From NCBI GenBank assembly GCA_018240405.1, contig JAFEFW010000621.1, positions 39,690-103,689 on the forward strand: a stretch of 64,000 bases of DNA, read 5' to 3'. The notes beneath the pieces were generated by a model. The model did not search any database and had not been told where the DNA came from. It saw only the letters and a program-made list of their open reading frames with translations. Positions 17,712 to 27,358 of this stretch are shown piece after piece. Every line of letters begins with the position of its first letter. Position 1 is the stretch's first letter. The translations under genes and the position numbers were made by a program. The DNA is from Pseudomonadota bacterium. Its GTDB lineage: Bacteria > Pseudomonadota > Alphaproteobacteria > Acetobacterales > Acetobacteraceae.

Positions 17712-18089
17712 TCAGACCTGCGTAAACGCCGCCTGCCGCGCCCAGGCGGGATGGCGCAGGCCGGCCTTGATGCGCGCGCCATTCTCAACCGACAGCGCAT
17801 TGGCAACCGCCGCCCAGGGCATGCCACGCGCCTGAAACGTCTCGGCCAGCGCCGCCATCGTGGCGTCATCACGCCAGCTCCACAGCCGCTCGACCAGCGG
17901 CTCAAACGTGCGGGTCCATTCAGGTCCCGGTGCCCGGCCTGGCGCGAATGTCTCGACCAGGGCGATCAGCTCGTCAACGCTGGCGCCGCGGACCGCCCGT
18001 CGCATCTGGTCTTCCGTCAGCCCCAAGGTGACGGCCGCCGCGTTCCGCAGCCGCCACAGTTCATCCAGGTTCGCCTGATCGTTGCTCAT
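17712..18089 (-). CDS. Unrecognised 125-aa protein, partner of the 534-aa protein
   Basis: I do not recognise this small, soluble, helix-rich protein. It has a LWRLRNAAAVTLGLTEDQMR segment near the N-terminus and a Trp-rich middle (RTFEPLVERLWSWRDD). No cysteine pair, signal peptide or membrane segment is visible. It starts three bases after the stop of the 534-aa gene, so the two are almost certainly co-transcribed and may form a complex. Upstream of both lies a perfect FNR-type box. Confidence 0.7.
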   Translation of the reverse strand: MSNDQANLDELWRLRNAAAVTLGLTEDQMRRAVRGASVDELIALVETFAPGRAPGPEWTRTFEPLVERLWSWRDDATMAALAETFQARGMPWAAVANALSVENGARIKAGLRHPAWARQAAFTQV

Positions 18090-18092
18090 GGC

Positions 18093-19697
18093 TCAGGCCT
18101 CCTGCGGGTGAAAGTAGTGGGCGAAAACCTGGTAGCAGTCGTGGGTCGGAGCACGCTTGATGTAACGCGCCTGGTGCTTGACGTAGCCGCGGATGAGGTC
18201 GTCCCGGCGCGAGGTCTGGTTGTGGCGGAACTCCTCCAGTTCGGTTGCGCAATTCCGCATCACATGCGGATCGTTCTGCCAGTGGCAGGCCGCGTAGGTG
18301 ATCGTGTCGAGCAGGTTATGGCGTTCGGTCGTCCGCTCCAGGTAGGAGTCGACCAGTGCGGCGGAGCGTGGCGCGTCCTGCGCCAGCACATGCTCCTTGA
18401 TGACCGGCAGCATGCGGTCCACCGCGATGCCGTCCGCCCAGCCGCGATAGACGTGGCGTGATTCCAGCGCCGATGCGGGGTCGCGCGGATAGATGGCGTT
18501 CGACCGGATGGTGTCGTTCATGAACCGCGCGCCCATGAACACGGCCTTGACCTGGTGCGGATTGTCGAAGTTGCGGATCCAGGACTGCACGACATTCATG
18601 TAGTCCAGCGCATGAGTCGGGTGCAGGAAGGCGCTCGGATGTTCCAGCACGTCCATGAAATAGCGCTGGAAGCAGACGATCACCGCGTCGCCGACATCCA
18701 GCAGTCCGGCACCGCGCTTGAAGAAAGCCATCAGCGTGGCATTGACTTCCAAGGGCCCGCCCCAGACCAGCACCTCGGTCAGCTTGTCGAGTTCACGCTC
18801 CGTCAGCGGCGCACTCGATCGTTTCGGAATAGCCGCTTGGTCGGGCAATTCCATGCGGCAGATCGTGCTGATTTCGGTCCACAGGCCGTAGAGCCGCGGC
18901 GAGCAGCCCAGATCCGGAACGACGGTGTAGAACAGCTCGTGCGAATTCTCCCAGCCGAGGTAATCGGCAATGTCGACCAGCGCCCGCGCGCGCAGGGCCT
19001 TGTGGCCGATGTTCTGGTAACCGCCGCGGTTGATGATGGTGTCCTGCAGGTCGATGATGCCGGCGAACAGGATGGCGTCCTTCAGCTTCTGCCGGGCAGA
19101 CGGATCGTTGGCCAAACCCAGGAACAGCCCGTAGGCCTCGGCTTTCTGACCCTCGGCGATGGCCCAGTTCATGCGGCCCAGGCGATCATCGACGGAGCCG
19201 TCCGTGATCGGTGCGTGGTCTTCAAAGTAGATTTTCGGCGGATCCCAGGAGGGACCGTCGAACCGGTTCACATGCTCATCCGGGCCGGGGAACTTGCGGT
19301 TACACTGCTCCGCATCCCGTGCGTAATGGCCGGGGAATTCGCAGACCACCTGCTCCCACACGTTCAGGCCTTGCGGCACGTACCACACGGCCTGGATGTT
19401 CGGCAGGACACCGCGTGTGCCGCCCAGTTCGTTCATCAGCGAAATGGCGCCGCGCCAACCCAGGATCGTGTGGTCGTAATTCACGCCCCGCAGCTCGCCG
19501 TTCGGCAGGCGCATCAGGTGCGAGGGTACCTGGACGAACGGTGCCGCGGCTGCGATCGTTTCCTTGATCATCGCCTTCAGCGGCCGGTTTTCCTCAGTCA
19601 TCAGACGACAGAAGGTCGCAGTCGCCTCGCGGTAGCGGACTTCCCGGATCTCATCCCGCAACCGCTCGACGGAGGCTGCGCCGTACACCATGTCCAT
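18093..19697 (-). CDS. Unrecognised His-rich 534-aa protein
   Basis: I cannot assign this large soluble protein to a named family. It begins MDMVYGAASVERLRDEIREV after AGGGGAA and contains many histidines: VNYDHTILGW, CEFPGHYARD, YQNIGHKALRARAL, WENSHELFY, LHPTHALDYM and a C-terminal cluster ending HDCYQVFAHYFHPQEA. The spaced His and acidic residues in predicted helices would suit a metal- or heme-dependent oxidoreductase, loosely recalling questin-oxidase-like proteins, but this is only an impression. It lies inside a CoA-dependent catabolic cluster, 3 bp from its small partner, and has its own upstream region with an FNR/FixK-type palindrome. Confidence 0.75.
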   Translation of the reverse strand: MDMVYGAASVERLRDEIREVRYREATATFCRLMTEENRPLKAMIKETIAAAAPFVQVPSHLMRLPNGELRGVNYDHTILGWRGAISLMNELGGTRGVLPNIQAVWYVPQGLNVWEQVVCEFPGHYARDAEQCNRKFPGPDEHVNRFDGPSWDPPKIYFEDHAPITDGSVDDRLGRMNWAIAEGQKAEAYGLFLGLANDPSARQKLKDAILFAGIIDLQDTIINRGGYQNIGHKALRARALVDIADYLGWENSHELFYTVVPDLGCSPRLYGLWTEISTICRMELPDQAAIPKRSSAPLTERELDKLTEVLVWGGPLEVNATLMAFFKRGAGLLDVGDAVIVCFQRYFMDVLEHPSAFLHPTHALDYMNVVQSWIRNFDNPHQVKAVFMGARFMNDTIRSNAIYPRDPASALESRHVYRGWADGIAVDRMLPVIKEHVLAQDAPRSAALVDSYLERTTERHNLLDTITYAACHWQNDPHVMRNCATELEEFRHNQTSRRDDLIRGYVKHQARYIKRAPTHDCYQVFAHYFHPQEA

Positions 19698-19777
19698 GGA
19701 CGTTCCCCTTTGCTCGCGCCCCGGTGCGTGCAGGGCGCGTCCCATTGGGCAGCTTGGCGGTGGGCCAGGGCATGTCC

Positions 19778-19791
19778 TTGATCCAGATCAA
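19778..19791. promoter_or_regulatory. Perfect FNR/FixK-type binding site (TTGATCCAGATCAA)
   Basis: The site matches the FNR-family consensus TTGAT-N4-ATCAA exactly, and the symmetry extends to CCTTGAT/ATCAAGG (19776-19793). It sits in the 150-bp gap between the stop of the CoA-transferase gene and the start of the 534-aa gene, centred about 87 bp upstream of that start. I see no convincing -10 element, so activation or repression cannot be decided. The inference is oxygen- or nitric-oxide-responsive control of the unknown gene pair. Confidence 0.7.
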
Positions 19792-19847
19792 GGCCACCAC
19801 GCCCGACCGTCGTCGCGCGGTTCTGGGAACGATAACCATTGGATTGG

Positions 19848-25051: not shown

Positions 25052-27304
25052 TCATTGCGTGCTATCCTTCTTCTCCTTAATCAGGGTGATGACAATGTCA
25101 GCGGAGCCGCGGTTGTTCTGGTAGAATTCGTTCGTGAAGCCGTTCCACCACAGCACGACGTCATTGACCCAGATCCGGACGGTGCCATCCGCCCGCGGCA
25201 CCAGCGTCGCCACAAAGCGACTTCCCTCCGGGTAAAACTCGAGCGGCTGCACATGCCGGATGCCATCGCTGGACTCGATGGTGACAAACGGCTGAAACCA
25301 GCGCCCCGACAAGGACCGCCGCACCGGCAGCGCCAGGTAACCGACGAGCCATTTGAAACGGGACGACTCAAACCCCTCGGGGCCGGTCGCAATCGTGCTG
25401 TCCAGCCAGTCTTCCTGGATCATCAGCCGGACGCTGTAGGTGTTGCCCGCTTTGACGGCTTCCTGGCCTTTCCAACACAGCATTGCCGTGGCGAACTGCT
25501 TCGCATCGTCGCGCGGCGGGTCCAGCTTGCAGAACCGATCGTTCGACTCGGCGGTGGCAATGGCCTGCCGTGCGACCGGAACCGCAACGATGAGCAAACC
25601 GCCCAGCAGTCCGAACAGCAGCACCCCAACGCCAAACAGGTTCGGCAGGGCCTGCCATTTCAACCAGCGTATCGTGGACAGGTAGGCATGATTGGTCCGG
25701 ATTCGACGGACAAGCCCGCCGGCGCCATCGGTGCGCGGCGCACGGCCACCACGGAACGGCGCCAGTACCGCCCACATGAGATCATGGATTCGCTGCTGCT
25801 GGCTGGCGCCACGCAGCAACAGCAGCGTCAGGGCCGCCACCAGCAGAAGCGTTGCGCCGGGATGGGTGGCAAACGCGTCGGTCCAGAACGACAGCCCGAA
25901 TGGCAGGAAGCCGCCAAGGCCTCGGATCAACGGCGAGATTGAACAATACCATGCCGTGCAGGCGCCGGCCTCCGGCCCGCTCCCCCAGAACGGCATCGTT
26001 GCAAGGACAGCAGAGACGAAAACTGTCAGGAAATAGTTGATCCTTTTACGCCAGATTTCGTCCCACACCTGCGCCTGCCCGTCCATGCGCACGCGCCGCT
26101 GCTCCGGGCTTTCCTGCATCGCGGCCACCGATCCGTCGGGCTGCAGGACCTGGAACGACCCGGGCAGGACAACGGGGGCGTAGCGTTCCACGGATGTGGT
26201 GAGTCGTTGCATCACACTGTGATGCAGGATGACCGACTTCAGATGCGCTTTGGCCTTGCGGCTCGGATTGCGCATTGCCACAGTCTCGGGATCGTCCGGC
26301 AAAAGGAACGCCGACAGGCGGCGCGGCTGGTAGCGATAGTAACCGGACATCCCCTTGCGAGAATCGTGAATTGGCGCGGACGCGCTGGGCGGCGGCGCAA
26401 AACGATCCGACGCATTGGGCAGGAAGCGCAGACCAACGGCCGCGGCCTCCTGCATCATCCAGGCAAGAGGTTGATGCGATAATGCATCATCTGGATAGCC
26501 GCCGCCGACATCGGCATGCATACCAGCAAACCACACCTGCTTGATCCGTTCCGGTTCGTGTGACTCGATCTCATCCCATATCACCGGGTGAAACGTGTCG
26601 CGCTCATCGTCCAGGGCCAGCGCATGTCGGGCTGTCGCAACCTTCCGATTGAGCTTTCTGTCAGGCATCGACAGCGGAAACACCCAAAGGTCGATTCCAC
26701 GGGTGAGCTCGGCCAATGGTGTCCCATAGGCAGCGACGGTATCCCATACACCGACGAACGTAACCTGCTCGACCGGCGTCTGGCGGTCCGGGTCGTACTG
26801 GATCTGCTTCCACATCCGGCGCCACACTGCGATGGCTGCATCCCGTACGGGCCGGGCCAGGCGCACAATGATCGGCATGGCGACGACGATGCCGCGGGCC
26901 AGGCGGTAGTGCCGGTAGATGTCGCGAGTTGCGTAGCTCAGCGTCTTTGCGTCGACATCACGCAAGACGCCTTCTCGCGCGATCAGACCGGCAACAATGC
27001 GCGCGGTGAAGGCGCCACGGCTGAAGCCGAAGATGTAGATCTCATCGCCGGGCTCCCAGTGCTCGCAAAGGAACTCGTACAGGTGCAGGACGTTGCGCTT
27101 GAGACCATAGCCGAACGCTCCGCCGAGCAGGGCGAGCGGCCGGAACGCGGAGGTACCAACGCCATCGTTGTAACAGGCGATCTGCGGGATGCTGTCGCCA
27201 TCCCGCGTCAGGTCGAGCGATTGGTAGAGCCGCCAGACGTTTGTCTTGAACAGCTTGGCGGAGCTGTTACCCGTGCCGTCGGAGAGCAGAACGATCCGTT
27301 TCAT
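25052..27304 (-). CDS. DUF2235 (phospholipase-like alpha/beta hydrolase) membrane protein
   Basis: This 750-aa protein opens MKRIVLLSDGTGNSS, the DUF2235 signature. The nucleophile elbow is GFSRGAFTAR with Ser95, and MHADVGGGYPDD provides the usual His/Asp segment. Three hydrophobic stretches follow: YFLTVFVSAVLATMPFWG, TLLLVAALTLLLL and LFGVGVLLFGLLGGLLIV. The catalytic part is therefore joined to a membrane anchor and a C-terminal soluble region. Some DUF2235 proteins are type VI secretion phospholipase effectors, but no VgrG, PAAR or immunity gene is adjacent, so a housekeeping lipid hydrolase is equally likely. Confidence 0.87.
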   Translation of the reverse strand: MKRIVLLSDGTGNSSAKLFKTNVWRLYQSLDLTRDGDSIPQIACYNDGVGTSAFRPLALLGGAFGYGLKRNVLHLYEFLCEHWEPGDEIYIFGFSRGAFTARIVAGLIAREGVLRDVDAKTLSYATRDIYRHYRLARGIVVAMPIIVRLARPVRDAAIAVWRRMWKQIQYDPDRQTPVEQVTFVGVWDTVAAYGTPLAELTRGIDLWVFPLSMPDRKLNRKVATARHALALDDERDTFHPVIWDEIESHEPERIKQVWFAGMHADVGGGYPDDALSHQPLAWMMQEAAAVGLRFLPNASDRFAPPPSASAPIHDSRKGMSGYYRYQPRRLSAFLLPDDPETVAMRNPSRKAKAHLKSVILHHSVMQRLTTSVERYAPVVLPGSFQVLQPDGSVAAMQESPEQRRVRMDGQAQVWDEIWRKRINYFLTVFVSAVLATMPFWGSGPEAGACTAWYCSISPLIRGLGGFLPFGLSFWTDAFATHPGATLLLVAALTLLLLRGASQQQRIHDLMWAVLAPFRGGRAPRTDGAGGLVRRIRTNHAYLSTIRWLKWQALPNLFGVGVLLFGLLGGLLIVAVPVARQAIATAESNDRFCKLDPPRDDAKQFATAMLCWKGQEAVKAGNTYSVRLMIQEDWLDSTIATGPEGFESSRFKWLVGYLALPVRRSLSGRWFQPFVTIESSDGIRHVQPLEFYPEGSRFVATLVPRADGTVRIWVNDVVLWWNGFTNEFYQNNRGSADIVITLIKEKKDSTQ

Positions 27305-27358
27305 CCCCGTGCCTTTCATGCGCTGGCAAACACTGATACCCATGGGGCATGCGACCAC

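Follow-up and report, generated by a model that had tools for sequence, protein, structure and literature searches.

The gene pair considered here lies in a 64-kb window, the term used below for the whole stretch of DNA that was analysed. Two open reading frames on the minus strand are adjacent and separated by a 3-bp spacer, and the larger one is preceded at its 5' end by a 150-bp gap (19698-19847), as the preliminary description had reported. The large protein belongs to a family that was divided by identity to the window's protein into class A (76-82%), class B (31-38%), and class C (26-29%); these labels are ours. The features of the locus are:

18093-19697, minus strand: 534-aa gene, class A of an undescribed family (ORF list, orthologue alignment, invariant residues)
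17712-18089, minus strand: 125-aa gene, orphan helical partner (ORF, linkage to class A, helical model)
19774-19793, minus strand: FNR/FixK-type operator, with core TTGATCTGGATCAA at 19778-19791 followed by G-GAC at 19774-19777
19751-19756, minus strand: predicted -10 hexamer CAAGCT, of NANNNT type, from which the box centre would be near -41

The 534-aa protein contains 21 histidines (3.9%). The ORF finder placed the start of the large gene at an ATG at 19745, giving 550 aa, and the orthologue alignment begins at the 534-aa start, not at the 550-aa start. The predicted transcription start at about 19744, obtained by arithmetic from the predicted promoter position, would exclude the longer form. 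Both genes were compared with four orthologues by codon position. Relative to L036, the 534-aa gene has 65, 45, and 231 changes at positions 1, 2, and 3 over 534 codons, and the 125-aa gene has 24, 17, and 62 over 122 codons. Changes at the third position dominate, and both are therefore selected coding genes.

TTGAT-N4-ATCAA is the operator type of FNR/FixK regulators, which serve as a low-oxygen switch. In the window, CCTTGATCCAGATCAAGG (19776-19793) consists of two perfect arms of 8 bp on either side of a 2-bp centre (CA). The arms of the "perfect 18-bp palindrome" noted earlier are thus perfect, but the expression is slightly too strong because the centre is not symmetric. The TTGAT-N4-ATCAA box occurs without mismatch once in the 64-kb window. 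Allowing up to two mismatches makes matches to TTGATNNNNATCAA common (24 in the window, compared to a mean of 10.55 in dinucleotide shuffles, none of which attained 24), so perfect boxes alone were counted. The preliminary description had named absence of the box upstream of orthologues as a refutation of its reading. The 5' end could be read at 14 class-A genes, namely the window's, those of 12 public loci, and the 5' half of the gene in genome G032; a perfect box was found at 12 of the 14, beginning 65-113 bp before the start codon, and is thus no chance occurrence. It is absent at L044, from a Hyphomicrobiaceae bin, and at L046, which matches a genome (G982) of another genus of the family. 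Low-oxygen control may therefore be a trait of one genus; 11 of the 12 box-bearing loci are placed in the window's genus, and L036 is unplaced. Among 21 paralogues of classes B and C, none has a site with fewer than three mismatches between 400 bp upstream and 60 bp inside the gene. A second copy of a class-A promoter with the first 47 codons is present on a 3-kb contig (L136; G033 contig 470); over the stretch compared, it matches the L039 promoter and represents a remnant duplication or an assembly artefact.

All 12 class-A promoters with the box have N-GAC directly after it, and among 11 aligned promoters conservation is poor at most of the remaining upstream positions. NANNNT contains the two best-kept positions of the -10 element. 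In nine of 11 promoters NANNNT stands at offset 35 or 36 from the box; in a test chosen after the conservation profile of those promoters had been seen, none of 10,000 within-sequence shuffles maximised over offsets reached nine, and the highest value was six. With G032 included, the hexamer is at this spacing in 10 of 12 promoters, L040 and L043 being without it. Most of the Fnr boxes in one published set are centred at -41.5 (PMC7713065). The spacing in class A is that of class II activators, with a predicted box centre at about -41.5. Conservation across orthologues and activator spacing to a -10-like hexamer bear out the assignment of the box as an FNR/FixK-type site, and the predicted low-oxygen regulation of the pair is well supported by this comparison. 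The observation made in the preliminary description is real, and stronger than its author could know. Like alphaproteobacterial FNR, FixK, and FnrL class II operons (-41.5), the pair has this operator and its spacing to a -10-like hexamer, and in this genome the box also occurs at narG and at a COX1-type oxidase. Unlike those operons, the genes controlled here belong to no described family, and the class-A promoters add N-GAC after the box.

Descriptions of FNR regulons have usually centred on respiratory and biosynthetic genes that were already known. Perfect boxes number 26 in the genome, and the backward control pattern has no copy; the boxes at L061 and L094 are apparently in one repeated stretch. 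The ORFs beside 25 sites were inspected (the 26th is the window's), and genes were scanned at nine sites judged informative. These genes encode nitrate reductase alpha (narG), COX1, SCP2, B12 radical-SAM, POR, aminotransferase, luciferase-like monooxygenase, FMO-like monooxygenase, and DUF1847 proteins, and a tenth box adjoins a gene for a Ribonuc_L-PSP protein. We take the SCP2 protein to be UbiT-like, the radical-SAM protein to be BchE-like, and the aminotransferase to be 5-aminolevulinate-synthase-like. Several other boxes lie inside genes, far from genes, or by unclear frames. The boxes that precede the luciferase-like and FMO-like monooxygenase genes (L057:1501 and L058:1501) are unexpected for a low-oxygen regulon. 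At L086:2520, the box with N-GAC at the Ribonuc_L-PSP gene, which is presumably chorismatase-like, lies approximately 0.4 kb from a Crp-type regulator with an ETLSR helix. Crp-type helix-turn-helix domains (HTH_Crp_2) have 17 matches in the genome, 11 of them over the cut-off. An E-x2-S-R recognition helix was seen in two of the nine regulator loci inspected (ETLSR in L070 and ETFSR in L076), several of the nine having been read in an evidently wrong frame. Glu, Ser, and Arg are given as the residues reading the Fnr box (PMC7713065), and the two helices fit this. The genome has FNR/FixK-type regulators.

The family of the large protein has three members in the window's own genome, the window's protein and two others at 36% and 29% identity. 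L113 and L114 were left unassigned to a class (about 28% identity to a class-C query and 36% to the window's protein). In surveys with differing thresholds, the family was present in 35 of 60 near relatives (own genome counted), 29 of 396 genomes of the order, six of 385 of the class, and two of 398 of the phylum, with the own genome included in each; it was also found in 18 of 61 genomes in or around a second genus carrying class C, a set to which the own genome does not belong. Named records with the family are bins from metagenomes, under the titles Acetobacteraceae, Asaia, Nitrosovibrio, Hyphomicrobiaceae, and Rhizobiales, and genome search puts the bins titled Asaia and Nitrosovibrio in the window's genus or family. 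In an alignment of 54 sequences, which omits the interrupted L041 and contig-cut copies, the residues invariant in all 54 are His 60, 76, 232, 362, and 478, Asp 75, 216, 262, and 476, Lys 233 and 514, and several Arg. These residues suggest that the 534-aa protein, taken to be cytosolic, is probably a metal-dependent enzyme. The earlier idea of a metal- or heme-dependent oxidoreductase is plausible, as the His, Asp, and Lys residues would fit a metal site. An AlphaFold2 model from 14 class-A sequences was unusable (mean pLDDT 38.1, pTM 0.25), and the mostly helical structure predicted for this protein is of low confidence.

Searches of Pfam, NCBIfam, PHROGs, and PDB sequences confirmed, for the libraries covered, that both proteins stand outside known families; only chance-level rows were obtained. 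A match of the large protein to a characterised family, which would have spoken against the preliminary reading, was looked for, and none was clear in these libraries. The 534-aa protein had one Pfam row (E 0.24) and at most chance rows in NCBIfam, PHROGs, and PDB sequences; one PDB profile search gave none and another gave a chance row at E 2.2, and plasmid records gave no match. Family members searched against Pfam (21) and NCBIfam (24) had scattered weak rows only, and those for ATP:guanido phosphotransferase, DNA polymerase III, RarA, and MtaC were taken as chance. The 125-aa protein had no match in Pfam or NCBIfam, one PHROGs row (E 0.08), and two designed helical proteins among PDB sequences (E about 1). 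All rows for sixteen members of its family had E values of at least 0.02 in Pfam and at least 0.05 in NCBIfam. Weak rows for HTH_29, HEAT, and others, and for the diol dehydratase small subunit (two of 16 members, E 0.052), were taken as chance.

The 125-aa gene is strictly linked to class A. At all 15 public class-A loci it follows the large gene, which is a remnant at L048, is cut by contig ends at L045 and L047, and has an in-frame stop at L041. No significant match to the 125-aa gene was found at 21 class B and C loci with flanks of 1.5 kb. The gene is present in 12 of 60 genomes. Eleven of these have an essentially whole class-A gene, a count that takes in G032 (split over two contigs) and G004 (one in-frame TAG); in the twelfth, G003, the 125-aa gene is kept behind a 65-residue remnant of the large gene. 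In genome G001 the partner is missing and the large gene is reduced to a remnant of 53 residues. Every whole class-A gene examined is accompanied by the 125-aa gene, which upholds the proposal that the two genes form a unit. Because of this strict linkage, the 125-aa protein most likely binds the 534-aa protein, as a subunit or a maturation factor. Its model is helical (mean pLDDT 81.6, pTM 0.71), and a fold search with the model in viral and PDB libraries gave nothing with E < 0.001.

Genes near the pair in the window encode CoA-transferase, acyl-CoA dehydrogenase, enoyl-CoA hydratase, GMC oxidoreductase, and luciferase-like proteins, and a role for the pair in the CoA-dependent degradation encoded around it had been proposed. 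When the flanks of 15 further class-A loci (up to about 6 kb, several shortened by contig ends) were compared at 40% identity over half the query length, nothing corresponded to the two acyl-CoA dehydrogenases, the enoyl-CoA hydratase, or the CoA-transferase of the window. A CoA-transferase-family gene directly downstream of the pair at L035 (27% identity) counts to the contrary, but the link to a CoA pathway is unsupported because the pair mostly has other neighbours elsewhere. The same 15 loci include a GMC oxidoreductase of the window's type at three, a second GMC family at five, and a luciferase-like gene at two, and the next called gene is on the opposite strand at seven. Because neighbours change between loci, the constant unit is the box with the two genes.

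Paralogues have other surroundings. A TauD/TfdA dioxygenase gene lies downstream on the same strand in eight of 14 class-C loci, and in none of 19 class-C-like loci from the other genomes. The class-C loci listed for their context are L095:3782-6296, L003, L021, L023, L025, L026, L030, L031, and L033, with respect to TauD and to NHL-repeat genes; an NHL-repeat gene is within the flanks in six of 14 (one a partial match). A CoA-transferase gene is downstream in one of seven class-B loci, that of the window's own genome. Together, the neighbours suggest a role for the family in catabolism of small organic compounds.

The explanation we favour, while holding it tentatively and at somewhat less than even confidence, is an operon activated at low oxygen by an FNR/FixK-type regulator through a box at -41.5, encoding a helical metal-dependent enzyme and a helical partner. 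At low oxygen the regulator would become active, bind TTGATCTGGATCAA at about -41.5, and recruit RNA polymerase in the manner of class II FNR activation, and the operon would be induced. The 534-aa product would be cytosolic and mostly helical, with the invariant His, Asp, and Lys residues building a metal-dependent active site, and the 125-aa helical product would form a complex with it. Class A may then represent the low-oxygen branch of a small family of catabolic enzymes whose other branches would do without box and partner, some of their loci lying beside genes for TauD dioxygenase, GMC oxidoreductase, or luciferase-like monooxygenase.

The opposite sign of regulation has also to be considered. 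The box could repress, leaving the operon aerobic and off at low oxygen, which would match the oxygen-using enzymes encoded nearby. The Rhodobacter coxI gene, listed as repressed, carries the same box sequence as the pair, and TTGATctggATCAA at coxI is listed with negative regulation (PMC2908626). The two monooxygenase genes preceded by boxes elsewhere in the genome agree with repression. Against it stand the NANNNT hexamers, which 10 of the 12 promoters have at the distance of class II activation, and the same spacing readable at the COX1 and SCP2 sites, and we regard repression as unlikely. Quite unlikely, in our judgement, is a non-enzymatic role in which the large protein, helical in structure, would sense small ligands or act as a scaffold for them, with the 125-aa helical protein as its adaptor. 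Both proteins look helical, the large one at low confidence, and VIA-align comparison of the small protein's model gave middling rows that are largely helical-repeat scaffolds; HEAT matches in two of the 16 small-family members are sub-threshold. These structural matches are below the level that is meaningful for helical proteins, the many invariant polar residues of the large protein are typical of an active site, and some paralogues adjoin TauD or CoA-transferase genes.

The lead that had looked best was an iron enzyme of the questin-oxidase type. The questin-oxidase family (PF14027) includes BTG13, in which one iron is held by four His and a Lys, and PDB entries for questin oxidase, BTG13, AflY, and the hydroquinone dioxygenase PaD match its profile. 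The 534-aa protein could be a very diverged mononuclear iron oxygenase of this kind (BTG13, AflY, PaD), which at low oxygen would cleave C-C bonds or oxidise rings. Beside a BTG13-type site, its family has five invariant His and two Lys, as judged from the alignment. Like PF14027, in which the invariants of five aligned members include H33, H123, H251, D317, H319, and K322, the family has several invariant His plus Lys with an Asp-x-His near the C terminus, and is helical by its low-confidence model. By eye, its motif order N..H / GH..R / THA / D.HV recalls PF14027 members. In contrast to these likenesses, no sequence or profile relationship was detectable: a PF14027 row was absent in all 21 large-family members searched, a PF14027 search of the own genome gave nothing, and local profile-profile comparison gave a probability of 0.1-0.2% (E 0.3-0.6), with both profiles shallow (Neff about 3). 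A forced global profile run (1%, E 0.024) covered 50 end columns and did not bring the motifs together. The 534-aa protein is also about 175-195 residues longer than five aligned bacterial PF14027 members, and induction at low oxygen would be unusual for an oxygenase. Membership in PF14027 was rejected on the failed sequence and profile tests, shallow as both profiles were, and such a relationship is very unlikely.

A bolder form of the low-oxygen operon reading, which we consider possible if doubtful, is that the large proteins constitute a new all-helical family of His-ligated metalloenzymes. One branch would have become a low-oxygen specialist by acquiring a promoter that FNR activates and a helical subunit of its own, and would be kept as a self-contained cassette of box and two genes set in changing neighbourhoods. 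The comparative evidence strongly ties a pair outside the searched family libraries to low-oxygen control, in bacteria that entered the analysis mainly as metagenome bins. For an undescribed family it supplies a testable starting point, with low oxygen as the growth condition, a partner protein, residues that are candidates for the active site, and the contexts of paralogues. Elsewhere in the window, the minus-strand gene at 25052-27358 strongly matches PF09994 (E 3e-71), the catalytic domain of T6SS Tle1-like phospholipases.
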